Positions 16,666 through 51,664 of a stretch of DNA of 64,000 nucleotides are shown here, piece by piece. Source of the stretch: Fibrobacteraceae bacterium. Lineage in GTDB: Bacteria > Fibrobacterota > Fibrobacteria > Fibrobacterales > Fibrobacteraceae. How positions within the stretch are numbered: position 1 is the first letter of the stretch; each line of letters starts with the position of its first letter. The stretch lies in NCBI GenBank assembly GCA_017631885.1, contig JAGBSH010000009.1:1-64000 (forward strand), written 5' to 3'. A program made the translations under genes and the position numbers. The notes under the pieces were generated by a model. The model had not been told where the DNA came from. It saw only the letters and a program-made list of their open reading frames with translations, and searched no databases.

Positions 16666-16840
16666 AAAAGGCCTCAATAAAATTTTACTTCTGCTTAATA
16701 TATATAGAGTTCAAAAAAAATCACTCTTTATAAGCGTAAAAAAATCTTTTTTAACAAGATTTTTAATTAAATCACTTAAATTTGCACACTATTACCCTAT
16801 TTTACTTTTTTTCTTTAAAAACCTTTCGGCCAATAAAAAA

Positions 16841-30128: not shown

Positions 30129-32330
30129 TTATTGCTTATTTAGTCTCAGCATATATTGTTTTGAACCTTGGCGAATTTTCATTACATAAAAGCCTGTAGG
30201 CAAAGATTCTAAAGAGAGGTAGTGAGACCCTGCAGTATAATGTCTAGATGCACTCTGTTTGAGTTTACCTGCAACAGAATAAATTTCTAAAGAAACAAAA
30301 CCAGGTTCAGAAACTTGCAATAAGACTCCACTATTTTGCATTTCAGCTCTGAATGGAATTCCTGGGAGAACTGCCGCAATTGGAGAACCTTGATATTCTT
30401 CTTTATTGACCGCCTGAGAACTATCACCAATAACAACTGTGATAGACTTGTTAAAGGCTTCATAGTAGTCTGTTTCTGGTGCTGTTGCAGTTACTTGCAC
30501 AACAGCGTTTTGCATTCCAGCTACAATTCCGTTACCTACATGAGTCAAATAAGGAGAAGTAGCTTCACCATTAAATGTATAAGTCACTGGCAAACGATCA
30601 TTCATTGTTGTATCAGGTAAGCAATCGTTTACTGTTGCCCCTAATGCAATAGTTTGATCTTTAAACTTAGAATGAAGTTTATTCAAAGCCTTGGCTAAAG
30701 TAACTGTTATAGTGTCGTTCAACGCTCTATAGCCAGTAACGGCTGGTGCAGTTGCAACTATTTTAGCTTCACCTAAATTTTTAAATGCAAGCATAGTAAC
30801 ATTAGAATTTAATTGATCACCATAGCAATATGAAGAATTAGCACATACAGCTTTCTTGATTTCTGCTACTTCAGGATTCAAAGATGTCAGAGTAATTGTA
30901 GCACCTTCATTTGTTTTTCCTGTCGTAGAAAGAACAACTTCTTTGCCACCAGTTTTTGTCAAATCTCTCATTTGACGGCTACCACTACAAGAGCCATTCA
31001 AACGGCATAAGAAATCGCCCCATTTATTAATTGTCTGACTAGGTTCTGCAGAAATAGTTACGATTGATTTAGAGCCATCATTGCCTTGTAAAATTGCATA
31101 ACCAGCACCAACAATCTGCAATGTAGAACCATTAACAGTAACAACACTTTCGTCACTTGATGTATAAGAACAACCAGCATTCAACACACCATTTATAGCA
31201 CCATCAGTTTCTTTAGCTGTATGATTTTTAAAAGAACAAGCCCCTTTAGCGCCAGCAATCAAAGAATCAGCCCAAGAACTACGATACTGATTTAAATAAT
31301 TTGTTACAAGTTTTCCTGATGAAGTAAAAGTTGCTTTGCTCAAAGCTTCTTTTGTTGTTAAGTATTCACTACCGTTCAAAATAGCTGATTCTTCATTTGA
31401 ATTATTTAAAGTACTTGTGTATTGACGCATACTCCAGTTACAGTTGCTAATTTTATTTTGTTCCATAAAACTAATCCACTGTTGTGTAGCATTAGCATCT
31501 GGATTTCCAGAACCACTTGCAGATGTAGTTCCCCATTCAGAAATAAACACTGCATTACCAGAATTAATTGCACTTGTTATTCTGTTACCATATGTTCCTA
31601 CACTATGTGAAGCGGCATAAAAGTGAAATACATAAGCAACATTTGTTGCATTTACATTACCATAGCTAGTTAATTGAGACCAGCTCGGTGTACCAACAAG
31701 AATCAAATTTTGTGTATAAGCTCTAATGCTACCAGAAATATCATTTGCATAGCTTTGAATTGTACTCCAGCCAGTATTTACAGGTTCGTTGTAAATTTCA
31801 AAAATGATGTTTGGAACATTGGCGTATTTTTGTGCTACATAAGAGAAAAATTCTTTTGCAGCACTCTTTTCACTTTCAGCACGATGGCTATGCCAGTCCA
31901 CAACAATGTAAACATCGTTTTCAATGGCTGCTTGAACCATTTGGTCTAACTTAGAAAGGTAACTTTCTTTTGCACCCATATAGGAATAAGCTTCATCAAG
32001 AGGATCAGAGGCGTTCCCTTGGCTATTGTAATATTGAATACCCATTGCAAAACGGAAAACATCTATTCCAAGCGTTTCCGTCATATATGAAATTACTTCT
32101 GGGTTGTAGTATTGAATACCTGTTGCATCAGACCAGAATAAACTTATTCCGCGAAGCATTACTTGCTTTTTAGAAGCTAAACTAATGATTTTTCCACCAC
32201 TAGTACCAAGCGCACCATAATTTTGAACAGGGCCTACACGCAATGGTTTTGCTGACAAAGCGTCTGCAAAGACATTTGATAAACCTAAAGTTAAAACACT
32301 AAAGCACAAAACCTTAAGCATTTTTTTCAT
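30129..32330 (-). CDS. GH5 endoglucanase with T9SS-type tail
   Basis: 733 residues. Signal peptide (ending about residue 22). GH5 (subfamily 2-like) domain about 35-355 with both catalytic residues: IIFEIYNEP (acid/base Glu182) and VFISEWG (nucleophile Glu265). Two beta-rich modules of unknown or immunoglobulin-like type occupy about 375-640, and residues about 660-733 form a C-terminal sorting domain ending in a Lys-rich tail. It should hydrolyse internal beta-1,4-glucan. It follows the GH8 gene after 77 nt with no terminator between them, so the two probably share a transcript. Confidence 0.93.
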   Translation of the reverse strand: MKKMLKVLCFSVLTLGLSNVFADALSAKPLRVGPVQNYGALGTSGGKIISLASKKQVMLRGISLFWSDATGIQYYNPEVISYMTETLGIDVFRFAMGIQYYNSQGNASDPLDEAYSYMGAKESYLSKLDQMVQAAIENDVYIVVDWHSHRAESEKSAAKEFFSYVAQKYANVPNIIFEIYNEPVNTGWSTIQSYANDISGSIRAYTQNLILVGTPSWSQLTSYGNVNATNVAYVFHFYAASHSVGTYGNRITSAINSGNAVFISEWGTTSASGSGNPDANATQQWISFMEQNKISNCNWSMRQYTSTLNNSNEESAILNGSEYLTTKEALSKATFTSSGKLVTNYLNQYRSSWADSLIAGAKGACSFKNHTAKETDGAINGVLNAGCSYTSSDESVVTVNGSTLQIVGAGYAILQGNDGSKSIVTISAEPSQTINKWGDFLCRLNGSCSGSRQMRDLTKTGGKEVVLSTTGKTNEGATITLTSLNPEVAEIKKAVCANSSYCYGDQLNSNVTMLAFKNLGEAKIVATAPAVTGYRALNDTITVTLAKALNKLHSKFKDQTIALGATVNDCLPDTTMNDRLPVTYTFNGEATSPYLTHVGNGIVAGMQNAVVQVTATAPETDYYEAFNKSITVVIGDSSQAVNKEEYQGSPIAAVLPGIPFRAEMQNSGVLLQVSEPGFVSLEIYSVAGKLKQSASRHYTAGSHYLSLESLPTGFYVMKIRQGSKQYMLRLNKQ

Positions 32331-32407: not shown

Positions 32408-34603
32408 TTACCGTTGGATACGAATACAACGAGAATAATCAGAATCGGTTACTCGAACGAGATAAGAACCTTGTCCTAATTTAGTTGAAGAGAGATCAAA
32501 AGTCTTTGTCCCACTCACATTTTTAGACAACAATTCTTCTCCATTCATAGAATAAATCTGTAAACGCACATCGTTTTTAAAGCCATTAAACACAACTTGC
32601 TTACCCACTTGAGCTAAAGAATATGCGTTAAATTTATTTTTAAATGTTTCTGGGATAGAATTGATTCCAGATAAAGAAGTAATCACATTACCACTTGCAT
32701 CTAAAAGCGATACTTCACTCAAAGCAAATGATGCATAACCTGCTTTAGCCATTTTTGCATCAAATTTGAGACCACGAACCATTGATAATACAACAGAGCG
32801 ATTGTTTGGCCAAGAAACCCACGAAGGAACACTCAATGCTTTAAATTCATCTGAACCATTATCAGAAATATCAATATCCATTGTTGTAAATTCTGCTACT
32901 TGAGGCAAATAAAGACCAGGTTCTCCACCTTCATTTCCATCTGCAAGTGTCATTGAATCTAAAAGAGCAAAGCGCATTACGCCTTCACTTCTATAAGTAA
33001 TTCTCACTGTATTCAAATCAGAAAGATTATAGTAGCTACTATTTTCATCAAAAGAAACTGAAACTCCAGCAAATGGATATTTTAAATCAGCATTAGCATC
33101 ATAAGTTGGTTCAGGGCCAATGAAAATTTCTGTGGCAATAACGGGGGTTCCATTCTGTAAATAAATAGCTGTTGTTCCAGAATCTGGATACATTACGGTT
33201 TGCCCTAATTTATCTGAATAAGCTCCCCAATGTTCAAATCCACAAACTTTTATACCTGTTCCTTCTGGTTGTAATTCACCTACAGGAGATTGCGGGCGAC
33301 GAACAGCACCAACAGGGTCTGGAGTAAATGGCACATAACCAGTCATATTGTAGAAATTTGGCATATTACCAGTTAAAGTCAAAAGATAAAGAATATTGAG
33401 TGTTGCAGCAAAATAGTTTTCACCCTTACCAGCACGAACGCTATCTTTACCATCTGTATTAATTAAAGAATAATAAACTGTTTCCAAATAATGCTTGTCG
33501 TCATCAACAGAAGTCATTGCAAGGCCAAGACCACCTGAATATGTTGAAGAAACAAAAATATCTGCATTAGAAGTTCCATCTAAATTGTAGCCTGGCAAAA
33601 TCATTCCTGCATAGCCATAAGTGGAATTATAAAGCCAGTTAAATAAAGCTTCGTTCGCTTCTTTAGCCACAGGAAGACCATACCAATGATAAGCTTGAGC
33701 AATGCGCCATGGCGTTCTTGCTGCATCGTCACCAAAAGTACCGCCACCAGTACCTACTGCCGCATTTGTTGTAGTTCCTTTATGAGAATTCCAATCACAC
33801 CAGTCAGGCATTAAGCCAGTTGTTTTATCTTGACATTGACGCAAATGATTTAGAGTAGTCGTTACAGCTGTATTCCAGAAAGCATCATTTGTCACTTCTT
33901 GGAAAAGTTTAAATGCTCCTACATGTGAATAACTTGGGTTAAAAGCATCGTTCCAGTTAGAACCTGGGCGAATACTACCATCACTTTGCATATCATTACT
34001 TTTTGTCCAATTAATGAGTTTTTTCGCATCTTCTAGGTAAGAAGAATTTCCCCATTGTTTGTAAGCCATTATCAAAGCGACTGCGGCATCAAATTCAGCA
34101 TCACTAGCTGTTCCACCGCCGATACTGCCGGTATAGTTGTCCACTTGCCAGTCCATACCTTGACCACTCCAAGAATTACAACCATTACCATTTAAACCTT
34201 TACCATAACATTTCCAGTATTTCCAGAGTTTATCAAACTCTGATTGGTAATCGTTTTGCGCATCAGACATGTACACCATCAAAAGCATACCATAGCCAAT
34301 ACCTTCAGAAACCGTTAATTCTACTTTGGCATTTGGGCTTATAACACGAGCTGTTCCACTCGGCATTCTCTGGTTTGCATTTTCTGAAGCACCACCATAC
34401 ATTGCATAAAACTGCCCTGCTTCTGTGTACCAAGCTTTTTTCCAGGTTTTAAAATGTTGCTGAATTTTTGATGTTTCAGCACCCTTGAAAGTAAGCCCAT
34501 AAGGATAAGCCTGGTTCTGAGGGAATGGAAACTTCGGAGCAGCAACAACTGAGGTTACCGCAAGAGCACCGATAGTAATAGCAGTTAAAAATAATTTTTT
34601 CAT
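32408..34603 (-). CDS. GH8 cellulase with CBM-like and T9SS-type domains
   Basis: 731 residues. Signal peptide (ending VVAAP). GH8 domain about 25-420 with VSEGIGYGML (Glu100) and ASDAEFDAAVAL (166-177, carrying Asp168), matching the GH8 signature with Ser for Thr and Glu for the second Asp. Residues about 455-650 form a beta-sandwich that looks like a carbohydrate-binding module, and the last ~80 residues form a sorting domain. Secreted through T9SS by inference. A 17-bp perfect hairpin sits in the leader. First gene of a GH8-GH5 operon. Confidence 0.93.
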   Translation of the reverse strand: MKKLFLTAITIGALAVTSVVAAPKFPFPQNQAYPYGLTFKGAETSKIQQHFKTWKKAWYTEAGQFYAMYGGASENANQRMPSGTARVISPNAKVELTVSEGIGYGMLLMVYMSDAQNDYQSEFDKLWKYWKCYGKGLNGNGCNSWSGQGMDWQVDNYTGSIGGGTASDAEFDAAVALIMAYKQWGNSSYLEDAKKLINWTKSNDMQSDGSIRPGSNWNDAFNPSYSHVGAFKLFQEVTNDAFWNTAVTTTLNHLRQCQDKTTGLMPDWCDWNSHKGTTTNAAVGTGGGTFGDDAARTPWRIAQAYHWYGLPVAKEANEALFNWLYNSTYGYAGMILPGYNLDGTSNADIFVSSTYSGGLGLAMTSVDDDKHYLETVYYSLINTDGKDSVRAGKGENYFAATLNILYLLTLTGNMPNFYNMTGYVPFTPDPVGAVRRPQSPVGELQPEGTGIKVCGFEHWGAYSDKLGQTVMYPDSGTTAIYLQNGTPVIATEIFIGPEPTYDANADLKYPFAGVSVSFDENSSYYNLSDLNTVRITYRSEGVMRFALLDSMTLADGNEGGEPGLYLPQVAEFTTMDIDISDNGSDEFKALSVPSWVSWPNNRSVVLSMVRGLKFDAKMAKAGYASFALSEVSLLDASGNVITSLSGINSIPETFKNKFNAYSLAQVGKQVVFNGFKNDVRLQIYSMNGEELLSKNVSGTKTFDLSSTKLGQGSYLVRVTDSDYSRCIRIQR

Positions 34604-34629: not shown

Positions 34630-34670
34630 CTTTTTATTACCATACAGGTCATTTGTATGGTAATAAAAAG
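34630..34670 (-). promoter_or_regulatory. Perfect 17-bp leader stem-loop of GH8-GH5 operon
   Basis: Arms 34630-34646 and 34654-34670 are perfectly complementary (CTTTTTATTACCATACA) with a 7-nt loop. It lies 27 nt upstream of the ATG and just before the Shine-Dalgarno (TTGGAG). It could be an mRNA-protecting stem, an attenuator or a protein-binding operator. Confidence 0.7.
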
Positions 34671-34796: not shown

Positions 34797-35858
34797 TTAT
34801 TTCTTTTTCTTTCCTTTATAGTCAACATCTGGACGTAATTCAAGTCCGATTGTCACTAACAAAGAAACAATAGATTCATGATGGTCTTGAGAAAGATCAT
34901 ATACGGCAACGCCAGCAAAACCACTATTCTTAACATTTTCAGAAAGTGCTTTTACAGATGGAATGCCCATGAAAACAATAGCTTCAGAAGCGCTTACAGC
35001 ATATTCTGACTTAGAAGCGTCATCAAAAGAAACGGTGTAATCAGGAGTATCAAATTTTCCCATCAATTCTTTATAAGATAAATAACCTTCGTTACCGCTT
35101 CCGATTCCAGAATGAGAAGAACCTAAGCCAGTAGCACCAGAGAATGATTTACCATACAAATAAACAACAGGAACCATTTTGTCTTTATTCAAACCTTTAT
35201 CAGCCATTGAATTAAGTGTTTCTTCAATAAAAGTAGCACTCTGATTTGGCTTGAGAGCAGATTCTTCTTCACTCATCTGATCTGGCATAAAGACTGTAAC
35301 ATAGTCCAGATTATTTAATGCAGAAACATCGTAAGCATCAGCAGCCACAAGAGGGTAAACTGTAGATGACAATGTATAATTTCCTGCAAATGCTGATTGC
35401 AAAGCACTCAACAAAGCAGTGAAATCTGCAGTATTTTCAGTTGAAAGATTCTGCCAATCTATTTCTACGCCAGAAAATCCGTTTGCTTGCATCCAAGAAA
35501 CTAGATTAGAAGCAAATGTATTACGGAGTTCTTCGGAAGCAGCAATTTCTTGTAAGGTGGATTCCATTTCCATACCACCAACAGAAACCACCAATTTTAC
35601 TCCATTTTCTGCCGCAAACTTTGAAAGTTCCTGCACATTTGGAGCATCGTTTTCATCGGCTAAAGCAACAGAACCGTCAGAAGCAGGATTCAAGTTGGCA
35701 TAATGGATATGAGTCAACAAAGAATAACGAATATCCTTTGGGTAGAATTGAGAATATTGGCTCCAATAAGGGAAAAAACCAATTACCTTATCAGCTGCCG
35801 CATGTGCCATTACAGCACATCCGAGAGCAAAAGCAATAGCGATATTTTTTACATTCAT
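34797..35858 (-). CDS. GH18-fold protein lacking catalytic Glu (chitinase-like)
   Basis: 353 residues with a signal peptide (ending AHAA). The fold is GH18: beta-1 VIGFFPYW, the SxGG-type VVSVGG (90-95), and the active-site strand FSGVEIDWQ (128-136). In active chitinases this strand is DGxDxDWE; here the sequence is SGVEIDWQ, with Gln136 (codon CAG at 35451-35453) in place of the proton-donating Glu. Hydrolysis is therefore unlikely and a lectin-like binding role is likely, as in other inactive GH18 proteins. It is the last gene of the six-gene envelope operon, with a Lys-rich tail. No lipobox is visible, so it is periplasmic or exported. Confidence 0.85.
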   Translation of the reverse strand: MNVKNIAIAFALGCAVMAHAAADKVIGFFPYWSQYSQFYPKDIRYSLLTHIHYANLNPASDGSVALADENDAPNVQELSKFAAENGVKLVVSVGGMEMESTLQEIAASEELRNTFASNLVSWMQANGFSGVEIDWQNLSTENTADFTALLSALQSAFAGNYTLSSTVYPLVAADAYDVSALNNLDYVTVFMPDQMSEEESALKPNQSATFIEETLNSMADKGLNKDKMVPVVYLYGKSFSGATGLGSSHSGIGSGNEGYLSYKELMGKFDTPDYTVSFDDASKSEYAVSASEAIVFMGIPSVKALSENVKNSGFAGVAVYDLSQDHHESIVSLLVTIGLELRPDVDYKGKKKK

Positions 35859-35867
35859 AAAATCACC

Positions 35868-36731
35868 TTACTTGTTGATAATTTCGCGAATCAAATTGCC
35901 GTCGGCACAATAAGATTTGACCATTGGGTATGTTTCTGACTGAACTGGATTTTTGAGTTCGTCTTCTTTACAAACTCTGTATGGCCAGCCATGAGAACGA
36001 CCAAAAATCACATATTGATAACTGATTGCAAATGTATCTAAAGGAACTTCTAACAATTTAGCGTAGTCATCTTCTGTATCGTAGAAAGAGAATTTCTTGA
36101 TTTGACGAACTACGTCTTTTGTCAAACCACCAGGAATTTCAACCTGTGTAGTATCACAAGAAAGAGTATCTACAACAGTCTTTGTTCCTCTCTTAGCTAC
36201 AGTATAATCTGTACCAATAGAGTATGTAACTGGTGTTGTTTTTGTAGAATCTTCGAAACCTTCGATTTCAGTGATAACACCATCTGCATCATAAGTGATG
36301 TTTTCAACATATACTGTAATAACAGCATCGTTGACTACATCATCGAGTTTCATACTGATAGTATCTTCTTTTGTGGTGCAAGCAACAGAATCCTGATAGA
36401 AAGATTCCCAACTTTCTTCCCAAAGTTCTTCAGAATAACCACCAAGAGTCGGGTCTGCATAAATTTTATGCAACTGAGCTGTATCTGCCATAAAAGCAAT
36501 GGTGTCAGCTTCAATTTCTTCTTCAGAAAGAGTTAAACCTGAATTATAATTATCAACATAGTCAAGAATTTGCAAACTGCGTAAAGCAGGATGAAGTTCT
36601 AAATATTCAGCTGCAACAAAATCAGCTGGAAAGTTTTCTTCTACTGATTCCGCTTCATTTACTTCCATTGAAGAACAAGCAGTAAGTGCTGCAACAGCAA
36701 GAAGCATTAAGTATTTGAAATGATTTTTCAT
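35868..36731 (-). CDS. Lipoprotein of surface operon
   Basis: 287 residues with lipobox LTAC (Cys near residue 19) and an acidic mature N-terminus (MEVNEAESVEE). It has a helical N-terminal region and a later beta-rich part with four cysteines. I recognise no family. The gap to the beta-barrel gene is 11 nt and to the GH18-like gene 9 nt, so it is certainly co-transcribed. It is a candidate membrane-anchored subunit linking the barrels to the GH18-like protein. Confidence 0.78.
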   Translation of the reverse strand: MKNHFKYLMLLAVAALTACSSMEVNEAESVEENFPADFVAAEYLELHPALRSLQILDYVDNYNSGLTLSEEEIEADTIAFMADTAQLHKIYADPTLGGYSEELWEESWESFYQDSVACTTKEDTISMKLDDVVNDAVITVYVENITYDADGVITEIEGFEDSTKTTPVTYSIGTDYTVAKRGTKTVVDTLSCDTTQVEIPGGLTKDVVRQIKKFSFYDTEDDYAKLLEVPLDTFAISYQYVIFGRSHGWPYRVCKEDELKNPVQSETYPMVKSYCADGNLIREIINK

Positions 36732-36742
36732 GATAACACCTC

Positions 36743-38875
36743 TTAGAACGCTACCGTAACATCGGCAATGATTACATTTTTATCAATGGAAAGTTCATCA
36801 TCAACAGAAATCGGGGTTACACCATCTTCTGCTAAACCACTTCTTGAGAAGCTAACTGCATTGGTCAACATTCCATATTGAAGAGAAATATAAGATGCAG
36901 GAGCAATCTTAATGCGTGGACCTACAAGCAACAAGGCTTCTTCTGCTTTAGTTATTGCGGCTTCTGCTGTAACAAACAATGGGTTACCGTATTCTTTAAC
37001 AACGCTCTGGTAACCGGCGAGTAAAGAGAATGGACCCCAAATGTCTAAAGAAGCACCAGCCATAATTCTGTCAGATTTGCGTTCATAGAAAGCATCTTCT
37101 TCTGCATGGTCATAAGAACCTTGAATAACCAAATCACGACCTAAGTTGAAAAGACGACCAACATTTACACCAAGACCTGCAGCATATTGTGTATACTTGT
37201 TATCAATAGCATCTTGATTGTATTGAGAGAAACGAGCATTTACTTCAATAGCTTCAGCATAATCCATATCTAAAGAAGCAGAGAATCCTTTGCGGTCTGG
37301 AGTTGCGATTCCATAAGGCAAAGCCATGTTCATAGATGGATCCATAAGCAAGAATGCTTCATTTGCTTCAAGACGTTTCATTACATCAGCATTGTAACCA
37401 TTGCGATAGAAATGAGTGTTCTTAAAGTTGTTATACAAACGAGAAGGAGTAAATGCGGATTCTAAATCACCACTCAAAGCGGTAGCCGATGCAGGAGACA
37501 TAATGTTCTGCTGATTGAGTGGGTTCGAATTATAAACCGAGAAATAAAGATTTTCAAGGCTAGAAGCTCCAAATGAAGCCACTAAATTCGTATAAACAGA
37601 ATCTGAATAGAATCCATTCGCATTAAATACAACTGCATTGCCACGATAAGCAGGAGCAGAAGCCATTTCTGACCAGAAATTTTCATCATTCTGGAGGTAA
37701 CGACCTTTCAAATCAAAGCTGAAGTTACCAAAAGCCCCCTTCACATAAGGTTCTACATAGAAACTGGTTCCATCGTCATCACCAAATTTCTGTTTTACAA
37801 CCTGATTAGAGAACTTTGTTTGAGACTTAATGTAAGCAACTGTATCCAAAATACCATCAGCATTTGGGTACAAACCTGTAGAAGAACCATAGAATTGTTC
37901 ACCTACACGTTCTGTTGTCCACATATCGGCTTCCCACCAAGACATGGCGTATTCACCGAACAAACCAAAGGAAACTGGCAAATTAGAGAGAACAGATTTA
38001 GAATCAAAACCAAGTTCAGCTGAGAACACTGCGTTATCATCTAAGATAAGTGTATCCGCTGTTCCTTGATCATGAGAATCTGTAGAAAGTTTTCTATCAA
38101 AGACATTGACAAAGTTAGCCCCAACATGAGCGCCATAAGCGTCTAATGCTAAACGACCACCATAAAGGTAACGATCTGACCAATCAAAGTCAAAGAATAC
38201 CTGGTCGTTTTTCTTAGCAATGTTACGGAGACGAGCGCCAGTTGCCTGAGCGTGAATATCGTCAAAAACACCAACTTTACCGCTGTGATAATCGATATTC
38301 AAACCTTGTAACAAACGTCTTGAAGTTGTATCCAAATTACGCTGCGCCAAAGCTTCAGAACGACTTTCAGCAAAAATTTCTGGTTCTTGTAAAAGTTCAG
38401 CTTGTGGGGCATACATGGTAAGAGGAGTATAACCAACACGCATGTAACCTAAGTTGAAAGCAAGAGTTTTGTTAAATAACAATCCGTCATAAGAGAACCA
38501 ATGACCAAGAACAGGATTATTGTTTTCTTCAAAACCACTCTGCCAATCTTTGTGCAAACGAAGTTCAACACGAACTTCTGTTTCAGAACTAGGTCTTGCT
38601 GTCACAACCAAGTTCACATCGGTATAAGCTTGGTTTTCTTGTGTTGGAGACAAATCATTGAACTGGTCAGAAGAAGCCATAGAAGTAGCTCCGCCAGCCT
38701 TTGCAGAACCGTTGAGTTTTAATCCCAAAACAGCTGCATTGAGAGAATCCAACTTGTCTAAAAGAGATTTCTGTTTTTGAACAACTGAATCTTGTTCGGC
38801 AGCAAAAGCAGAGACTGCCGAAAGCAGGAGTGCAGAAGTTAAACCAATCGAACGCATTTTCATATTAAAGCTCAT
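36743..38875 (-). CDS. Outer-membrane beta-barrel protein (paralogue 1)
   Basis: 710 residues. Signal peptide ending AFA, then a short amphipathic helix (QKQKSLLDKLDSLNAAVLGL), then long beta-strand-rich sequence (aromatic/Asp/Asn-rich) ending in VTVAF. C-terminal Phe is the usual recognition residue for outer-membrane barrel assembly. It shares the block PLTMYAPQAEL...EPEIFA and LLQGLNIDYH with the neighbouring barrel, so the two are paralogues. No TonB box or plug domain is visible. Could be a pore or a surface adhesin. Strong GGGAGGG ribosome binding site. Confidence 0.85.
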   Translation of the reverse strand: MSFNMKMRSIGLTSALLLSAVSAFAAEQDSVVQKQKSLLDKLDSLNAAVLGLKLNGSAKAGGATSMASSDQFNDLSPTQENQAYTDVNLVVTARPSSETEVRVELRLHKDWQSGFEENNNPVLGHWFSYDGLLFNKTLAFNLGYMRVGYTPLTMYAPQAELLQEPEIFAESRSEALAQRNLDTTSRRLLQGLNIDYHSGKVGVFDDIHAQATGARLRNIAKKNDQVFFDFDWSDRYLYGGRLALDAYGAHVGANFVNVFDRKLSTDSHDQGTADTLILDDNAVFSAELGFDSKSVLSNLPVSFGLFGEYAMSWWEADMWTTERVGEQFYGSSTGLYPNADGILDTVAYIKSQTKFSNQVVKQKFGDDDGTSFYVEPYVKGAFGNFSFDLKGRYLQNDENFWSEMASAPAYRGNAVVFNANGFYSDSVYTNLVASFGASSLENLYFSVYNSNPLNQQNIMSPASATALSGDLESAFTPSRLYNNFKNTHFYRNGYNADVMKRLEANEAFLLMDPSMNMALPYGIATPDRKGFSASLDMDYAEAIEVNARFSQYNQDAIDNKYTQYAAGLGVNVGRLFNLGRDLVIQGSYDHAEEDAFYERKSDRIMAGASLDIWGPFSLLAGYQSVVKEYGNPLFVTAEAAITKAEEALLLVGPRIKIAPASYISLQYGMLTNAVSFSRSGLAEDGVTPISVDDELSIDKNVIIADVTVAF

Positions 38876-38890
38876 TCTTAAACCCTCCCA

Positions 38891-41134
38891 TTAAAATTCC
38901 ACATTAATGGAAGCTTCGATGATAGACTGTGTAAATTCATGCGTGTATTTACCAGTTGCATCCGTTGTAACATCATAATAGTCAGGAAGATTGTAAGCAC
39001 CTTCTGCAGAAGCAGCTGCTACAAGACCAGCGGTATTGTATTCATTTTCAACCGAAATCATGCCATAATTCAAAGAGAACCATGCATTCGGAGCGAAAGA
39101 ATAGTCAAGACCAACCATCCATTGCATTTGTTTGCCTGTTAGCATTGGAGCTTTCAAAGCGCTTACTACACCTTGGAAATCATTGTATTCTGTTGTAATA
39201 TACTGGAATCCAGCAGTAACACCAAGTCTAGGTAAATACTGAACATAAAGACCAGCATTGATAAAGTCACTCTTTAATTCTGCAGTTCCGTCAACCATTC
39301 CAAGAGAAACCCAATTATCGGTATCCATGCTACGTTCAGAATGCTTATAAGAACCAGAAATTTCAAGAGGCTTTTTGAATCCTAGCAATTTGAAAACATC
39401 AACCTTAGCTCCGCCACCATATTCCGTATAAGCAGCTTCTTTAAAACCAACAAGTGGAGAAACCTGATTGAACATGCTGAACAAGCCTTGAAGTTCTGCA
39501 GCTTCACCCCATTTAGCAGTCAAGAGACCTTGAGCACCCATACGGTTAGAAGTAGCTAAGCCATTTGGCAAAGACATCTGTAAAGCAGGATCAGTCATTG
39601 TTTCGAGCAATGCTAACTGATTACGAGTATAAATTGTTGTTCCCCAAGAATTCTTGTTAAATGGAGCAATGTTATAACTTTCTGTTTGTCCATCGCGCAA
39701 GCCACCATCATCTGTAGCAAGAGACGTTGCAGCAGGAGAATACTTTGGAGAGAAGTTATACAAAGCATCGAAAGAAGAATAAAGAGGTGAATTTACGCCA
39801 TAACGGATTGTATTTCCATCTTTATCTGTATTGAGAATTCTTTGAGCAAAGAATTGTGGAGACTGAGCCAAATTATTAAACCAGTTGCTATCGTTACGGA
39901 TAAAATCAACAGCAAGGTTAAGATTTAAGTCAGAAACTTTATAACCCACATTCATATTAACAAGCAAAGCAGTCCCGTTTAAAGTTTCTTTGCTAGCTAC
40001 ATCTTCAAATACTTGTTCTCCAGATTCTGGGTCAAGTAACGGAGTAGCACCTGTTGGGTCTGCTGGATCCATTACAGGAACATCGACATGGGTATAAACA
40101 TCGTCAGAAGAATAAGCAAATTCACCAACAAGATCCAAAGTCAAACTATTTGACTTTATGATTCCTGCTACATCTGCACCAACTCGACCACTTACAACCA
40201 TTGTCTTTTGAGGGTCAAGATCAAATGGATTAACTGGTTCAAGTTCATACGGCATGGAAAGATCATTTTCTGCATGGCGATAAGTGTAAGTAAATGAATC
40301 TTCGTTATCAAAGATATACATTGGAGTTACACCGACATACAAGTTTTTGCTAAGAGGCAACAATTCCAAGTTAGCAGCAACAAGCCACTTATCCATATTG
40401 GCGGCTTGAGAAGCTCCAGCAAAATTTCCATTCGGGAAAATGTTTCCTTCTGCACCGGAGAAATCTAGAACAGCAGCTCTATTCAAGCGAGCAAAAAGAG
40501 CTTCTGCACGAACTTCTCCAACAGCATCATTGATATGCTTGCGGAACTGAACGTTTGCACCTTGTAAATTTCTTTGATTTCCTTCAATCAATTCTTGCTT
40601 TTGAGCCATGTGGCGTTTACGAGCAAAAATTGTTGGTTCAAACATGACATCTACGGAAGGAGCGAAAAGAGTCAAAGGAGAATATTGCTGACGGAAATCA
40701 CCTACAATCCAATAGAAAGATTGGCCAACATTACCTTCAACATTCACCCAGCCAACAGAAAGCGTTTTAGATGCTGAAGAGAAATACTCTTGCATACCAG
40801 CACCAAGACGAAGCATCACATTAGCGCGGACATTTTCCCATGGACGGAAATGGAAATCCAAATCAGCCATTGCAATAGCATTACGCTCTTCATTTGGCAT
40901 AATGTTTTTGCCTGTTGGATCTTGGTCATTATCAACAAAAGAGTTTTGGACTACTGCGCGAATGCTTCCGCCGATTTCTACGCCACGTTTAGCGTTAATA
41001 GAATCGACTTTATCTTCTAAGGCTTGTTGGTTATCGAAAACGGAGGTAGCAGAAGCTAGAGCTGTTGCCGATAACAAAGCCGTTAAAGTTCTTTTCCACA
41101 TTTTAAAACCTTTCGAACTTTTTTTCATATTCAT
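38891..41134 (-). CDS. Outer-membrane beta-barrel protein (paralogue 2)
   Basis: 747 residues. The N-terminal MKK-rich start and hydrophobic segment (LTALLSATALASA) form the signal peptide. A short helix (NQQALEDKVDSINAKRG) precedes a beta-rich region ending ASINVEF. Shared motifs with paralogue 1 include YSPLTLFAPSVDVMFEPTIFA and RNLQGANVQFR, so the two come from a duplication. An alternative in-frame ATG lies 11 codons into the protein; I prefer the first because AGGAGGAGTT precedes it at good spacing. No enzymatic motif seen. Confidence 0.85.
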   Translation of the reverse strand: MNMKKSSKGFKMWKRTLTALLSATALASATSVFDNQQALEDKVDSINAKRGVEIGGSIRAVVQNSFVDNDQDPTGKNIMPNEERNAIAMADLDFHFRPWENVRANVMLRLGAGMQEYFSSASKTLSVGWVNVEGNVGQSFYWIVGDFRQQYSPLTLFAPSVDVMFEPTIFARKRHMAQKQELIEGNQRNLQGANVQFRKHINDAVGEVRAEALFARLNRAAVLDFSGAEGNIFPNGNFAGASQAANMDKWLVAANLELLPLSKNLYVGVTPMYIFDNEDSFTYTYRHAENDLSMPYELEPVNPFDLDPQKTMVVSGRVGADVAGIIKSNSLTLDLVGEFAYSSDDVYTHVDVPVMDPADPTGATPLLDPESGEQVFEDVASKETLNGTALLVNMNVGYKVSDLNLNLAVDFIRNDSNWFNNLAQSPQFFAQRILNTDKDGNTIRYGVNSPLYSSFDALYNFSPKYSPAATSLATDDGGLRDGQTESYNIAPFNKNSWGTTIYTRNQLALLETMTDPALQMSLPNGLATSNRMGAQGLLTAKWGEAAELQGLFSMFNQVSPLVGFKEAAYTEYGGGAKVDVFKLLGFKKPLEISGSYKHSERSMDTDNWVSLGMVDGTAELKSDFINAGLYVQYLPRLGVTAGFQYITTEYNDFQGVVSALKAPMLTGKQMQWMVGLDYSFAPNAWFSLNYGMISVENEYNTAGLVAAASAEGAYNLPDYYDVTTDATGKYTHEFTQSIIEASINVEF

Positions 41135-41148
41135 AGCTCAACTCCTCC

Positions 41149-43380
41149 TTAGAACCAAACCTTCGTTTCGGCTGCAATATAGTGAGAATGCCAATCGTTT
41201 ATCGAAAGCGTTTCGTCAGAATGAGTCATCCATTTATAACGGACATGCAAACCAGCACGATCTGCGAAGTCCCAATCAAAGCCTAAACCAATTGCTGTTT
41301 CCATGTAATTGATTGGGGCTTTTACAAAGTAAGAAGTACCTACTTGTGTTACTAAAGAAGAGGTTTTTAAGATTGTATTAGAAATGGATTGTGTTGTATA
41401 AGCGTTTTCTGCACGGAAGGTTTCAAGGCCTAAGATACCAACCATGTGGAATTTAGGAGTAATTGCAATGGTTGGTTCAAATTGACCAAAGAAACTCCAA
41501 AGCAACATGTCATCTTGAGCTTCGCTATAAGCAAGTGGAGTAAATGTTGTTGAAATTCCAGAAAGAGATGCATAAGCAGTCATCATGATATTTCTGTCAG
41601 TACCAAACCAATGACCGATATCATAACCACCCATCAAAGAAACAAAAGAAGACCACTTTGTATGTGCCGGAACAATAGAATCACGAATCTGTTCTGCATC
41701 TTCGTATGCAACAAAAGATTCCCACATTTCCCAAGTTCCACCATAGAGGCCACCTTTCTGACGAAGCATTTTTACACCAGTTCCGCGGTGTTGAACGCCA
41801 GTGCGCGCTACATAACCATTAGCACGTGGGTTTGCATTACCAGAGTCTGCATTGAACAAAGGTTTATGCTTTGTCCAGGAATTGGTGCTTTCCCACATAT
41901 TGCGGCCATTCAAACGGTAATTGAAAACAAGTACATCATCACCTTCTTCAACCTGACGATGTTGACCATATTGCAAGTCAAAATAGCCACGATTGAATGT
42001 TGGTTCTAACTTGAAGTTAAGACCAAACATATTTGGGGTATAACGCAAAGAACCTGCATTCAAATACATTTCATCTTTACGCCAGCTCGTAAAGCGAGAA
42101 GGGTTACTCATAGAGTATGGAGAATAGAATTCTTTAGGCAAGTAAATACCTTCAAGAGTCATTGGCCAACCTTCTACATACTTACTTTGAGCTTTTACAT
42201 AAACACCAACTTGAGGGGTAGCTAAAGCTGATTCGTAAGAAGATTTTTCATAGCCAGCGATGAAACTAGATTCATCGGACTTATAATACTTCATTGAATC
42301 AGTGATGCTTAAAGCTACATCTGCCATCAAGTAAAGTTTAGGAGTAATGTTACCTTTAACATCTAAAGAAGCTACATGTGTATTCAACAAATGTGGTTGA
42401 ACTTTTACAGCATCCCATTGTGAATAAAAGTCTTTTTCGTATACGATACCTTCGTCAAAAACAACTCCCATATAGTTCAAGCCAAGGCTTAAATTATCGA
42501 GAATTTTGTTTTTAGCGATACGGCCATGATAAACATCGCCACGGAAATCATGCATACCATAAGTTTCAAGTTCGCCTGGTTGACCACCATAAAGGCGAAG
42601 ACCATCACGAGTACCCATGTCTGCATCTATTGGCTGTGACAACATGAATTGAGCAGTCATGTTCCAAGGAAGTTGATAGAAGTTCATGAACAAGCCACCA
42701 AAAGAACGGTTTGTCCAGAATGCACGACCACCTTCTTTTACTGGTTTGAATGATTTTTCTTTATAATAGGTACTAACTGTTTTTTCGTCTTCAAACAATT
42801 CGTATTGCCAAGAGAAACGAGGAGCTGTTTCACGTTCCCACATAGTTAGCGGTGAAGAATTAGCCCAAATAACACCACCTGCGGTTACATAAGCACCAAA
42901 AACACCAGCACGAATATCTACACCGACATTAAATTCTTCGTTAATTGTTGGACCATAATAGTCAGTTGAATGGTCCCAAAGAACGCGTTCATCTTCTGTA
43001 GGAGCATTTGTTGGTGTTTTAGAAAGCAAGTTCCCATAAGTACCAGATAAGTCAAATGGGAAAGCCAAATTAGTCCAAAGAGTTACATAGGAGTTTGGCA
43101 TTGCCACAATAGACATATTCAACAAAGCGTCTACCGGAGTACGAGCATAGTCACTACCAGTCCAAGGAGAACGTTCTGAATAATGGAAATTCTTTAAGCG
43201 GAATGCCATGTAACCTGAGACTGCTAGTGGCAAGTCATCTTTACCCAACAAAGTGGATTCCATATTGGAAGAAAGAGTATCCAAAGAAGCATGAATTGAA
43301 TCCAACTGTAATTGCGGAGTCAAAGCCCACGAGGCACCGACGCAAGAAGCAAGAAGAAGAGAAGTAATCTTTTTACGCAT
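41149..43380 (-). CDS. Outer-membrane beta-barrel protein (paralogue 3)
   Basis: 743 residues. Signal peptide (ending ASWA), helix LQLDSIHASLDTLSSNME, then a beta-rich region ending ETKVWF. The block SPLTMWERE corresponds to the shared PLTL/PLTM site of the other two barrels but the rest is more diverged, so it is a more distant paralogue. It carries several Trp/Tyr-rich segments, as expected for a barrel with long external loops. The third barrel of the operon, 9 nt after the CBM-like gene. Confidence 0.83.
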   Translation of the reverse strand: MRKKITSLLLASCVGASWALTPQLQLDSIHASLDTLSSNMESTLLGKDDLPLAVSGYMAFRLKNFHYSERSPWTGSDYARTPVDALLNMSIVAMPNSYVTLWTNLAFPFDLSGTYGNLLSKTPTNAPTEDERVLWDHSTDYYGPTINEEFNVGVDIRAGVFGAYVTAGGVIWANSSPLTMWERETAPRFSWQYELFEDEKTVSTYYKEKSFKPVKEGGRAFWTNRSFGGLFMNFYQLPWNMTAQFMLSQPIDADMGTRDGLRLYGGQPGELETYGMHDFRGDVYHGRIAKNKILDNLSLGLNYMGVVFDEGIVYEKDFYSQWDAVKVQPHLLNTHVASLDVKGNITPKLYLMADVALSITDSMKYYKSDESSFIAGYEKSSYESALATPQVGVYVKAQSKYVEGWPMTLEGIYLPKEFYSPYSMSNPSRFTSWRKDEMYLNAGSLRYTPNMFGLNFKLEPTFNRGYFDLQYGQHRQVEEGDDVLVFNYRLNGRNMWESTNSWTKHKPLFNADSGNANPRANGYVARTGVQHRGTGVKMLRQKGGLYGGTWEMWESFVAYEDAEQIRDSIVPAHTKWSSFVSLMGGYDIGHWFGTDRNIMMTAYASLSGISTTFTPLAYSEAQDDMLLWSFFGQFEPTIAITPKFHMVGILGLETFRAENAYTTQSISNTILKTSSLVTQVGTSYFVKAPINYMETAIGLGFDWDFADRAGLHVRYKWMTHSDETLSINDWHSHYIAAETKVWF

Positions 43381-43389
43381 AAAACCCTC

Positions 43390-44127
43390 TTAAATCGCGT
43401 TTCGGAATGGATAGTTGGCAGGACCTTCATAAGGCTTGCCATGCTTCTTGATTACAACATCATCAATCCAAACCTTGAACTCTGTATTTTCATCTTTACG
43501 GACTTCGAGACGGAAACCTTTGAAGTTTGCCCAACCAAATGGCATAAACACATCACGTGTATTTTTGGCATCCCAGTAAAGACCTGTCATACCAAAAAGT
43601 TTTAACGGAATGCTTACATGTTTCCATTCTGTAGAAATTTCAACGAAACTTGAAGAACGGAGCTTAACCTGTAGAGATTCACCACCACTCTTTACGCCGT
43701 CATCAACAAGCACGAACAAGGCGTTTTCGCCGCCTTTATTGCCCTTAATCCAAAATTCAAGGACGCCTTCTTCAAGGTAAGGAGTCAAATCTACAGAACC
43801 AGCGATACAGATAGCAACACCAGAATAATCGCTTGCAATGAGCTCAATTTCCATAGAAAGAGCGCCTTCTTTTGCATATTTATCTGTCATGACAGGTTCT
43901 GGGTTTTCACGCGGATACTGGTAAGTATAGCCACCACCACGAGGGATAGCTTCACGCATAACCACAGACACAACATCCTTATCCGGGCGGAAAGGCTTTG
44001 GGTCTTTTAATATGAAACGGGATTGATCGCGGTCACGATAATCGCTGAAACCGCCATAGGAAAAAGACACAAGAAGAAATGCGCCTAAAGCACATTTCCA
44101 AATAGCATTCTTAAAATGTGAATTCAT
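43390..44127 (-). CDS. Secreted CBM11-like carbohydrate-binding protein
   Basis: 245 residues from the ATG at 44127; a TTG 90 bp further upstream would begin before the predicted promoter box and is unlikely. Signal peptide (MNSHFKNAIWK... to about residue 26). The mature sequence has a single jelly-roll-like module (about 60-235) with the pattern YLEEGVLEFWIKGNKGGE, TEWKHVSIPL and FKVWIDDVVI, resembling CBM11 and related beta-glucan-binding modules. No catalytic domain. It heads the six-gene operon and is likely the soluble or surface recognition subunit. Family assignment is tentative. Confidence 0.72.
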   Translation of the reverse strand: MNSHFKNAIWKCALGAFLLVSFSYGGFSDYRDRDQSRFILKDPKPFRPDKDVVSVVMREAIPRGGGYTYQYPRENPEPVMTDKYAKEGALSMEIELIASDYSGVAICIAGSVDLTPYLEEGVLEFWIKGNKGGENALFVLVDDGVKSGGESLQVKLRSSSFVEISTEWKHVSIPLKLFGMTGLYWDAKNTRDVFMPFGWANFKGFRLEVRKDENTEFKVWIDDVVIKKHGKPYEGPANYPFRNAI

Positions 44128-44316: not shown

Positions 44317-44369
44317 AGTTCTTTTTTTTTGTGTATTTTTCACTTGTGAACCTTTTTTGCAGGAAAATT

Positions 44370-45551
44370 ATGAAAAAATCCCTTTTATTAGCAGCTTTGT
44401 GTTGTGGGCTTCTGGCTTGTTCTGAAGAATCTAAAGGCTTAGCTGCTTCAGAAAATACTTCCACAGATACGGATTCTACTGTTTTTGTTCCAGTCCCTGT
44501 TGACTATTCTGCCGGAAGAGCTATGAACAAACGTCTTGGAAGGGGCATGAATTTAGGAAACTCTTGGGAATCTAAATCCTATAGTGGAGATGTTCCTGAT
44601 GAACCTTACAACTTTGGATATAACGATAATTTAGATGCTGGCTGGGGAAACCCTATTAAAGATGAATATTTCCAACTTTTAAAAGAAGCTGGTTTTAATT
44701 CTGTCCGTATCCCTGTTCGCTGGCAACATAATTCTGACCCAGTTAATCACACTGTAAACCCAGAACGTTTAGCTGGTGTAAAAGAAGATATTCAATTAGC
44801 TATTGATGCAGGTCTTGCTGTTGTTGTAAACTTCCACCACTATAAAGAATTAATGGTCACAGCTAACAATAGCGAAACCGATCCAGCACCATACGAAGCA
44901 GAAAAAGCTCATTTCTTTGCTCTTTGGGATCAAGTAGCAGAAGAATTAAATTCTTTCCCTGATTCTATGCTTGTTCTTGAAATTTTAAACGAACCAGAAA
45001 TGAAAAGCCCAGATTTACTAAACGAAGTGACTATGGGGGCTTATGAAATTATTCGTAAAAAAGCCCCAACTAAAACCATTATGATTGAATCTTATCATGC
45101 TGGTAAATTTGCTGATTTAGATGTTTTAAAACTTCCAGAAGATGGGAATATTATCTTTTCTGGTCACTACTACGAACCTTATACTTACACTCATGAAGGC
45201 CATGGGTATAATTGCGTTGGCGACGACTCTTATGTAAATAGTGCTTTGTCTGATATGCAAAAATACGTGGCTTTAGCTCAATCCCTTTACCCAGATGTGA
45301 ACGGCGGTCATGTACCTATGAACCTTGGTGAATTTGGCGTTTCAGGACAAACTGGTTCTTGTAGTACAAACGGACCATCAAACAGAAGCCAATTACTCTG
45401 GACAAAAAAGACTATCCGAGCAGCAGAATCTTATGATATGTCTTGGCATTATTGGGGATTTGCAAGAACTGGTGGTTTTGAAGCTTATGATTCAAAGACT
45501 GGTTCTTGGTTACCTGGTTTCTTAGAAGTATTCCAAAACCCTAATGATTAA
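44370..45551 (+). CDS. GH5 endoglucanase, lipoprotein
   Basis: 393 residues from the ATG at 44370 (AGGAAAATT before it; a longer frame adds a poor N-terminus). Lipobox LLAC with Cys17, then an acidic Ser/Thr linker. GH5 domain (subfamily 4-like: GMNLGNSWE, FNSVRIPVRW) with LEILNEP (acid/base Glu208) and LGEFGVSG (nucleophile Glu321). It should cleave beta-1,4-glucan or xyloglucan near the cell surface. Divergent from the six-gene envelope operon and overlaps the end of lpxA by 11 nt tail-to-tail. Confidence 0.92.
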   Translation: MKKSLLLAALCCGLLACSEESKGLAASENTSTDTDSTVFVPVPVDYSAGRAMNKRLGRGMNLGNSWESKSYSGDVPDEPYNFGYNDNLDAGWGNPIKDEYFQLLKEAGFNSVRIPVRWQHNSDPVNHTVNPERLAGVKEDIQLAIDAGLAVVVNFHHYKELMVTANNSETDPAPYEAEKAHFFALWDQVAEELNSFPDSMLVLEILNEPEMKSPDLLNEVTMGAYEIIRKKAPTKTIMIESYHAGKFADLDVLKLPEDGNIIFSGHYYEPYTYTHEGHGYNCVGDDSYVNSALSDMQKYVALAQSLYPDVNGGHVPMNLGEFGVSGQTGSCSTNGPSNRSQLLWTKKTIRAAESYDMSWHYWGFARTGGFEAYDSKTGSWLPGFLEVFQNPND

Positions 45552-48776: not shown

Positions 48777-51011
48777 CTAATAAACAATCAAAAGTTTTCC
48801 TTTCTTTTGCTTTTTACCTTTTTTAATAAAGTAATGATAAAGCCCAGGGGCTACTAAATTCCCAGAGTCATCTCTAGCATCCCATTCTAAACGACCACCT
48901 TGTAGTAATTCTCCGCTAAAAGAACGAACTAATTTTCCGCCCGCATTAAAAATGTTGACTCGCGAACTTTCAGAGATATAGTCAAAAATGATTTTCTGAT
49001 GAAGTTCTGGCCTGAATGGATTAGGGTAAACTTTAACTTCAGAAGTTGCTGAATCCGTCATAAAACCAGAAGCTTGACGCAAGTCATTACGTTTTAAAGA
49101 AGTAATTCCTAAATCTTGTGCAAACCAAATTGTACCCGTGATAGAATCCAAAGCTATGTCAAAAACATTTTCACTTAATAACCCATCTCGAACACGAAAT
49201 CTTTTTGCTGATAATGTGTCAACAGAATTTCTTATTTTTTGTAATCTGAATACACCTTGGCCATTTGAAGAAACCCACGGATTTCCTTGCGGGTCAATAG
49301 CTATTGAAGAAAATGAAGATGCAGCAAATTGAGAAATTCTATGAGGGACTCGCAAAGTATCATTATCTTCTAAAAAGCCTATATTTGAATAAGTTACTCC
49401 CCAAAGTCTATTTTCGGCATCAAAAGCCATATCTAAAACAAATCCTTTTTCCGGAGTACTGATAGATTTTTTTTCTAAAACTTTCAATGAAAATCCACTT
49501 CTTGAAGGCGGTTCTATAACAAACTTATCAATAGAGCCTGTTCCATTCAAAGCGGCAGTTGTCCCCGAAGAAACAAAGACTTCCCAATCAGAAGAGTCTT
49601 CTACTTTACGAGCAAGCATTGGACCAGAAAATGAAGACGAGCCTACTGAAGGAGCGCATAAAATATCGCCATATAAATTCATAAAAGCTAAACCATAAGC
49701 TTCTTTTCCCCAATAAGAAATTAAAAAACCAGACCCATCAGGAGCTGCAACTGCTGAGGCAGAAACCCAATAATTTTCTAAAAAGTTTTCCATGCATGTT
49801 TCCATAGAAGCTTGGAAAAAAGCCTGCACATTTGGTGAATGGAAATTCTCAAAAATAGTTCCGCCTAAGCCCCATATTCCATAATACATTTTATTATTAG
49901 GTAAAACAGAAAGTGTTTTCATTAAATGATTTGGGCCATCAAATGCATTTGACCAACCCAAAGGATTAGAAGGCATTGGTAAAGAAAAGGCTTTATCTTT
50001 GGGGCCTATAAAAGAAAGCATTGAATTATTACCAGAAGCAACTATTCCGCCGCTAGGTAAAGTGGTCAATTCATAAACAGGACCTAATTGGTAAGAACTC
50101 CATTCTGAAAAATTTTTAGACTCATTTGTTAAACCATAAGCCACAAAATTTTGTCCAACAAAAAAATATTTTCCTTCGTGAGGCAAAATCCAATTCACAA
50201 GACTTGTATCGTTTTTATAAAATGATTTTGGTTTTACTGTTTTGCCATTGACAACTAAAGCACTTGTATCTTCAGATGCGGAAAAAAGCAACTCTTTTCC
50301 CCAGACATAAGTCCCTTTTTGTTCTTTAAAATGTAACTTGCCTGAATTATCTATCGCTAGCGCATAAGGTGTAGTATCTAATTGTCTATGTTTCCAACTT
50401 GCCGGATCAGCAAGTAATTTGTCTTTTTTCAAATTTCTCCATGACATGTTTCTTGAGTAGAGATTTTTTTCTACAGCGACCAACAAAGAATCACCATGGA
50501 TAGTAATTACTTGAACAGGTGTTCTTTCTAAATCAGAAGTTCCTATTCTCGAAATAGACATAATAAATTCTTCAGAATCTAAATCAAAAAAGGAAAGCTT
50601 TTTTTCAAAAGCAATAACCATTACATTTTCGGTAATAGCAGCTAGTGTTGGAATAGCAAAAATCCCTTTTTCTTGAAAAGAACGATTGATTACATGAAAT
50701 TTATTTTCGCCTTTTTTCTTTCTAGCAATAGTCCCTTGGCGAGAAACGGCGTACAACGCATTTTCATTCGCTTTTACAGAAACAAAATGAGAAGTTTCAA
50801 GACCATCTTCTGAAGTAAAAAATACTGAACTTCCATCTGAAGAAACCTGACGTACACCTTGAGATGTTGCTAAGTAAAGAGAACCATCAAACAAAACTGC
50901 ATCATGAATAGGAAAAGGTAAAGCAAACCCTTCTAATTGGTTGTCTGATGAAAAGACCTCTGCCACAAGTAGAGCAAAGAACGCAATGAAAATTTTGATT
51001 TTTAATTCCAC
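48777..51011 (-). CDS. Beta-propeller protein with T9SS-type tail (PorZ-like outline)
   Basis: 744 residues. Signal peptide (ending about residue 22), then repeated blade-like segments (GSLYLATSQGVRQVSSDG, ENALYAVSRQG, and NPWVSSNGQGVFRL late in the protein) as in two-component-regulator propellers. The last 90 residues contain VYPNPFRPE, GGKLVRSFSG and APGLYHYFIKKGK, a typical type IX sorting domain. The two-propeller-plus-tail layout resembles PorZ, a component of type IX secretion that helps attach cargo to the surface, but this is an outline match only. Not clearly in an operon. Confidence 0.75.
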   Translation of the reverse strand: MELKIKIFIAFFALLVAEVFSSDNQLEGFALPFPIHDAVLFDGSLYLATSQGVRQVSSDGSSVFFTSEDGLETSHFVSVKANENALYAVSRQGTIARKKKGENKFHVINRSFQEKGIFAIPTLAAITENVMVIAFEKKLSFFDLDSEEFIMSISRIGTSDLERTPVQVITIHGDSLLVAVEKNLYSRNMSWRNLKKDKLLADPASWKHRQLDTTPYALAIDNSGKLHFKEQKGTYVWGKELLFSASEDTSALVVNGKTVKPKSFYKNDTSLVNWILPHEGKYFFVGQNFVAYGLTNESKNFSEWSSYQLGPVYELTTLPSGGIVASGNNSMLSFIGPKDKAFSLPMPSNPLGWSNAFDGPNHLMKTLSVLPNNKMYYGIWGLGGTIFENFHSPNVQAFFQASMETCMENFLENYWVSASAVAAPDGSGFLISYWGKEAYGLAFMNLYGDILCAPSVGSSSFSGPMLARKVEDSSDWEVFVSSGTTAALNGTGSIDKFVIEPPSRSGFSLKVLEKKSISTPEKGFVLDMAFDAENRLWGVTYSNIGFLEDNDTLRVPHRISQFAASSFSSIAIDPQGNPWVSSNGQGVFRLQKIRNSVDTLSAKRFRVRDGLLSENVFDIALDSITGTIWFAQDLGITSLKRNDLRQASGFMTDSATSEVKVYPNPFRPELHQKIIFDYISESSRVNIFNAGGKLVRSFSGELLQGGRLEWDARDDSGNLVAPGLYHYFIKKGKKQKKGKLLIVY

Positions 51012-51599: not shown

Positions 51600-51664
51600 T
51601 ACATACACCTCTTGTAGATAGATACCTTCCGATATATCAAAAACCCAATCTTGAGACAAAATGT

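Follow-up and report, generated by a model that had tools for sequence, protein, structure and literature searches.

In the SusC/SusD loci of the Bacteroidota, surface glycan binding, passage through the outer membrane, and glycoside hydrolases are brought together in one locus. Glycan-specific porins such as the chitoporin ChiP and the maltoporin LamB are plug-less barrels with 16 to 18 strands and lengths of 330 to 470 aa, and the chitinase-like lectins (CHI3L1/YKL-40) have a GH18 fold in which the catalytic acid is replaced and binding is retained. Among the major degraders of cellulose in the guts of herbivores is Fibrobacter, which to our knowledge uses neither cellulosomes nor SusCD. Its cellodextrin transporters have been described as unknown or not delineated (PMC6851124, PMC4668043).

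Here, we describe a six-gene operon in a 64,000-nucleotide stretch of DNA (the window) from a Fibrobacteraceae bacterium, which we think is likely to capture cellulose oligosaccharides (cellodextrins) and take them up across the outer membrane, and which resembles each of these systems in part. As in the SusC/SusD loci, surface glycan binding and outer-membrane passage would be joined to glycoside hydrolases in one locus, and the CBM30-CBM11 proteins encoded by related operons outside the family (outgroups) are mostly lipoproteins, as are surface glycan-binding proteins. However, the barrels lack a TonB plug (there are only ∼50 residues before the first strand, and no PF07715), there is no SusD, and in the outgroup operons an ABC importer and phosphorylases replace the TonB-energized step; the barrel operon is most likely analogous to Sus, rather than homologous. 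ChiP and LamB share the absence of a plug (with 7vtz and 7vu2 among the top Foldseek matches to barrel B2), but are sequence-unrelated to the barrels here, which have ∼22 strands and 650 to 750 aa, and of which there are two or three different ones per operon. The GH18-like protein at the end of the operon recalls CHI3L1/YKL-40, although it is bacterial, is encoded in an operon with barrels, and has cellulose, not chitin, as its reported ligand.

Organization of the operon

The six genes are all on the minus strand between positions 34797 and 44127, where they had been predicted, and are separated by gaps of 9, 14, 15, 11, and 9 nt. The first encodes a 245-aa secreted protein with a signal peptide and a CBM30 domain (43390 to 44127; Pfam CBM30, E = 9.4e-19), followed by the barrels B1 (743 aa; 41149 to 43380), B2 (747 aa; 38891 to 41134), and B3 (710 aa; 36743 to 38875), a 287-aa lipoprotein, LP (35868 to 36731), and a 353-aa GH18-like protein (34797 to 35858; Pfam GH18, E = 6e-40). 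The operon is closed, as proposed, by a single intrinsic terminator on the same strand directly after the GH18-like gene (34787 to 34767; GCAGCTC-loop-GAGCTGC-T8), with a 7-bp stem (5 GC pairs), a 7-nt loop, and a T8 tract. The original prediction gave each gene its own Shine-Dalgarno sequence; these are clear in five of the six (AGAGGG, AAGGAGG, GGGAGGG, AAGAGG, and AAGG), but not in the first, the CBM30 gene, where a GGAG is badly placed ∼14 nt upstream of the start.

It had also been suggested that no standard system (SusCD, cellulosome, or type IX core) has this set of genes, and our domain and length tests agree, ruling out membership in SusCD, TonB receptor, type IX secretion (T9SS), and cellulosome systems. 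In the Pfam and NCBIfam searches, none of the six operon proteins contains a Por/Spr protein of the T9SS core or a sorting domain, and there is no Pfam match to cohesin or dockerin in the operon or in the scanned neighbors.

Conservation within the Fibrobacteraceae

The predicted six-gene operon is real and conserved. A B3 probe matches 100 of 101 genomes in the family, representing each of the 11 genera, and almost all of these genomes have a single strong match. Searches of relatives for the same order, CBM30-B1-B2-B3-LP-GH18, show it to be kept across all 11 genera, in 32 loci, wherever the contig allows, and because this six-gene synteny persists down to 34% protein identity, the order is not due to chance. 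The proposal would have been weakened if the barrels or the lipoprotein had been found singly in unrelated contexts, but this is not the case; the barrels are together in every locus examined, with the CBM30 gene adjoining them wherever the contig continues.

The proteins differ widely in their rates of change. Identities to the window proteins across genera are 65 to 87% for the CBM30 protein, the most conserved of the six products, 48 to 77% for B1, and, outside the nearest relative, 20 to 49% for LP (from an alignment of 24 orthologues); the CBM30 protein is therefore unusually constrained, and LP unusually free to change. That LP is a lipoprotein is confirmed by its lipobox (LTAC↓SSM), and it has a conserved Cys pair; C19 and six further positions, besides M1, are invariant in the alignment. 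There are no Pfam or NCBIfam matches to LP, and hence no SusD-like lipoprotein is recognized. We note that LP evolves far faster than its operon neighbors, some versions having large insertions and Ser/Glu-rich tails, which might reflect surface exposure. In three loci (L048, L056, and L062) LP was missed by BLAST, yet a lipoprotein open reading frame sits in its place.

The barrel proteins

B1, B2, and B3 have the signal peptide, barrel fold, and C-terminal Phe of outer-membrane beta-barrels. All three terminate in Phe as proposed (VWF, VEF, and VAF), and the short motif that they were said to share is present as [ST]PLT[LM], with SPLTMW of B1 in register with SPLTLF. None of the three has a credible Pfam or NCBIfam match, and a PDB sequence search was empty. 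B3 is a paralogue of B2 (hhalign, 100%, E = 1.4e-58). B1 appeared to be unrelated to B2 and B3 when only family sequences were used, but the inclusion of outgroup sequences reversed this and identified B1 as a remote homologue (hhalign, 94.9%, E = 5e-8, 616 columns aligned); as judged from these profile alignments, the three are one remote family.

The AF2 model of B2, which was built with 40 homologues and is confident (pLDDT 85.7, pTM 0.84), has ∼22 long strands by our own count on the DSSP string, along with a short N-terminal helix, a conserved ∼115-residue insertion between strands 13 and 14, and no plug domain. The B1 model (pLDDT 63, pTM 0.69) is also an all-beta barrel, with an unreliable strand count. 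There is no room for a plug in either B1 or B2, because the modeled strands begin at residues 51 to 52. Foldseek searches of the PDB gave only generic large barrels with TM scores of ∼0.3, and we therefore claim no close structural analogue.

Genes flanking the operon

The operon was described as adjacent to cellulases, which is correct but understated. A divergent GH5 cellulase gene (44331 to 45551, plus strand; Pfam Cellulase, E = 3e-36), whose product has a lipoprotein-like N terminus, lies directly upstream in the window and in nearly all relatives with long enough contigs, and the operon is therefore more than merely near cellulases. The GH5 gene is on its own strand and outside the operon, and its Fibrobacter succinogenes S85 counterpart, Fisuc_1523, is a characterized cellulase; it is probably a functional partner of the operon. 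On the other side, beyond the terminator, are a GH8 gene (32408 to 34603, minus strand), which is a local neighbor only, and a second GH5 gene (30129 to 32330, minus strand), both encoding T9SS type A sorting domains; in many genera the sorting-domain GH5 is found close to the barrel operon, and its orientation is often reversed. The predicted fibro-slime neighbor is present at 25588 to 29883 (TIGR02148).

Several other features of the window can be noted. The operon terminator and the GH8 gene are separated by a region holding a near-perfect 19-bp inverted repeat, CTTTTTATTACCATACA...TGTATGGTAATAAAAAG (34630 to 34670), possibly an operator or a bidirectional terminator. A second GH8 (15295 to 16677) resembles the periplasmic endoglucanase BcsZ, below the cut-off, and in many other genera, too, a GH8-like open reading frame is found in the vicinity of the barrel operon. 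Close to the cellulase region, the product of 48777 to 51011 has a C-terminal part that is PorZ-like (T9SS), scoring 97 bits against a 260-bit cut-off. The gene at 51108 to 51806 encodes an ECF-type sigma factor, whose S85 counterpart may be Fisuc_1517, placed upstream of the GH5 gene Fisuc_1523 in the S85 genome paper. Farther away (60289 to 63564) is an SNF2-type helicase with below-cut-off similarity to DISARM DrmD, which is possibly a phage-defense gene.

Related loci outside the family

Of 57 Fibrobacterota genomes from other families, 38 have a match to the B1 profile and 38 a match to the B2 profile, and in the loci examined the two genes are adjacent, with a CBM30 protein encoded beside them. 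One class of these loci, which we call cellulose-type, has the organization SBP5-DppBCDF-B1-B2-[CBM30-CBM30-CBM11-GH51]-GH94/GT35, in which SBP5 is a family 5 solute-binding protein; it is seen most clearly in loci L159, L162, and L192 (SBP5-permease-permease-ATPase-ATPase-B1-B2-CBM30/GH51-GH94). Dipeptide-type ABC importer genes are present in 16 of the 28 genomes with cellulose-type loci and a GH94 or GT35 phosphorylase in 12, both counts being lowered by short contigs; the CBM30 protein adjoins the barrels in 27 of the 27 whose contig continues. This protein consists of CBM30-CBM30-CBM11, to which a GH51-like catalytic part is usually added, the same layout as in S85 Cel51A (CBM30-CBM30-CBM11-GH51); in most instances it has a lipobox. 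The Cel51A orthologue is the B1-B2 operon partner in outgroups, whereas in the Fibrobacteraceae Cel51A is encoded at another locus, and the operon begins instead with the gene for a stand-alone CBM30 protein.

Judged by its gene content, the cellulose-type operon appears to encode a complete route for cellodextrin uptake. The components of a polysaccharide uptake locus, broadly defined (binding protein, barrel, enzymes, importer, and phosphorylase) are all present in outgroup operons; those in the window are the binding protein, the barrels, and the adjacent cellulases. We regard the linkage to importer and phosphorylase genes as the strongest evidence on function. The surface complex for polysaccharide binding or uptake that was originally proposed, with the GH18-like protein as a lectin, pointed in the right direction; however, uptake is favored over mere adhesion, because genes for an ABC importer and for cellodextrin- or glycogen-type phosphorylases are also present in the outgroup operons. 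The SBP5/Dpp importer class carries peptides as well, and we infer the sugar specificity of the outgroup importer from the neighboring genes. A counterpoint to cellodextrin uptake is that the importer and phosphorylase genes of the Fibrobacteraceae are outside the barrel operon. A GH9 cellulase is present in 38 of 38 outgroup genomes with B1 and in 9 of 19 without it (Fisher test, 2e-6, which ignores phylogeny), a co-occurrence that is suggestive only; GH94 does not closely track the presence of B1.

A second, chitin-type copy is present in three relatives within the class (G156, G158, and G159), with the order CBM30-B1-B2-B3-GH20-GH18-GH18, and its GH18 proteins have intact DGxDxDWE or AGxDxDWE motifs. 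Since a chitin version exists, the barrels accompany whatever enzymes for beta-1,4-glycans a locus encodes. In a further family (f2), CBM30-B1-B2-B3 is found with neither LP nor GH18 beside it. G156 and G158 (loci L155, L156, and L172) have both cellulose-type and chitin-type barrel copies and are a natural pair for addressing substrate specificity.

Proposed binding proteins and their counterparts in F. succinogenes S85

The first protein of the operon was previously called CBM11-like, but its match to CBM11 (E = 4e-5) is below the cut-off, and it is instead a CBM30 protein, scoring 68.4 bits against a curated Pfam cut-off of 27; its relatives in the PDB are the CelJ CBM30 structures 1wmx/2c24 (E = 6e-8). 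It has neither a lipobox nor a T9SS sorting domain, and it is predicted to bind cellulose or beta-glucan.

Using the published locus order, we took the S85 counterparts of the CBM30 and GH18 proteins to be Fisuc_1525/FSU_2007 and Fisuc_1530/FSU_2012, respectively; exactly four S85 loci lie between Fisuc_1525 and Fisuc_1530, giving room for B1, B2, B3, and LP. No mention of Fisuc_1526 to Fisuc_1529 or of FSU_2009/2010 was found in the S85 literature searched. Both counterparts occur in extracellular or surface fractions, and GH18 is a cellulose-binding protein of the outer membrane (PMC4668043, PMC4619616, PMC3079729). The CBM30 counterpart is annotated as a cellulose-binding domain protein; one study detected it solely in the extracellular medium (PMC4668043), and another found it in the surface proteome on every substrate (PMC4619616). 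GH18 was present both extracellularly and in the outer membrane, with ∼six-fold-higher levels outside (PMC4668043). Expression of GH18, Cel51A, and GH94 is constitutively high and stable (PMC6204037). The locations and the high constitutive GH18 fit cellodextrin uptake; a point against it is that a third study recorded a slight decrease of the GH18 counterpart on cellulose relative to glucose (−1.30-fold; PMC6851124).

These locations, envelope or extracellular for both counterparts, together with the isolation of GH18 as a cellulose-binding outer-membrane protein and the strong conservation of the CBM30 protein, could also be explained if the operon encodes an adhesion scaffold, in which the barrels anchor the CBM30 protein, LP, and the dead GH18 and hold cells on cellulose without transport, as in the original lectin proposal but with the uptake removed. 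Anchoring, however, needs no three large barrels, B2 is large and plug-less, and in relatives the barrels share operons with genes for an ABC importer and phosphorylases; we consider this explanation unlikely, although it ranks first among the alternatives. A second alternative is that B1 to B3 are a secretion channel for export or display of the CBM30 and GH18-like proteins and, ancestrally, of the CBM30-GH51 enzyme. The two S85 proteins do reach the medium with no T9SS sorting domain, the CBM30 gene always adjoins the barrels, and the Foldseek matches include the usher and other large barrels that act in export. But that likeness is generic (TM ∼0.3), the operon is devoid of periplasmic or inner-membrane secretion partners, and linkage to an importer and phosphorylases suits uptake and not export, making a secretion role improbable.

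The GH18-like protein and origin of the operon

The GH18-like protein was predicted to be inactive, and by its sequence it is a pseudoenzyme. The DxxDxDxE catalytic motif here is GFSGVEIDWQ, the end of which aligns to the WE of solved chitinases, and the catalytic Glu is absent in 24 of 24 homologues in the family, being swapped for Q, G, D, L, or another residue. An active GH18 occupies the same operon position in the chitin-type copies. Furthermore, when 44 B1 proteins were placed in a maximum-likelihood tree, a branch with full SH-aLRT support separated the Fibrobacteraceae, the chitin-type copies, and f2 from all cellulose-type copies; this tree is not rooted, and some of its branches are long. 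This tree, and the terminal GH18 of both operons, suggests that the window operon descends from a chitin-type copy; with B1 of the window grouping in this way, its GH18 is probably a chitinase that has become non-catalytic.

Because the family operon is closest to chitin-type copies, a GlcNAc-containing substrate is possible. As a third alternative, the chitin-type function could have been kept in the Fibrobacteraceae for uptake or recycling of GlcNAc oligosaccharides from chitin or peptidoglycan fragments. The closest relatives in the B1 tree are indeed copies with GH20 and active GH18, and the S85 authors have proposed a role in peptidoglycan turnover for GH18. Nonetheless, GH20 has been lost from the operon along with the GH18 catalytic Glu, cellulases neighbor the operon, the S85 GH18 binds cellulose, and F. 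succinogenes is reported to grow solely on cellulose and its soluble components (PMC3079729); we give the GlcNAc explanation a low probability.

A proposed model for cellodextrin uptake

In the cellodextrin uptake that we favor, the secreted CBM30 protein and the dead GH18 protein would bind beta-1,4-glucan chains at the cell surface, and B1, B2, and B3, probably as a hetero-oligomer, would form plug-less pores passing oligosaccharides to the periplasm, with the LP lipoprotein as a putative membrane accessory. The route would be completed by Cel51A, SBP5, and the GH94 phosphorylase, whose genes are at other places in the genome. The ancestral locus would have handled chitin, its terminal GH18 chitinase losing catalysis and now acting as a binding protein. 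The basis computed here is gene order, homology, conservation, loss of the catalytic Glu of GH18, absence of a plug, and linkage to importer, GH51, and phosphorylase genes in relatives; from these we infer the direction of transport, the substrate, the assembly of the pore, and the lectin role, with transport coming from gene linkage.

In this genome, the orthologue of Cel51A (endoglucanase F) is on contig C10, apart from the barrel operon, an SBP5 orthologous to the binding proteins of outgroup operons is elsewhere on C10, and the single GH94 is on C29. ABC permease genes were not found beside the SBP5 gene; the route is therefore dispersed and partly unproven, and we do not claim a full uptake operon for the Fibrobacteraceae. 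There is one TonB plug protein in this genome and zero to four in the family members sampled, and SusC-type uptake is therefore scarce.

Implications

The analysis defines an outer-membrane barrel family for which there is no Pfam or NCBIfam model. It is possible, although we put this forward only tentatively, that TonB-independent import through this unnamed family of plug-less ∼22-strand barrels, assembled into a hetero-oligomer together with a CBM30 protein for capture and having evolved into cellulose and chitin versions, operates throughout the phylum and is the main route for beta-1,4-glycan oligosaccharides in the Fibrobacterota. The window operon offers a concrete case of a chitin locus that was probably remodeled for cellulose, with a chitinase made into a binding protein. 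For Fibrobacter, it names a candidate for the outer-membrane step in cellodextrin uptake, specified by five or six genes, which in S85 would be Fisuc_1525 to Fisuc_1530 if the correspondence drawn from locus order holds.
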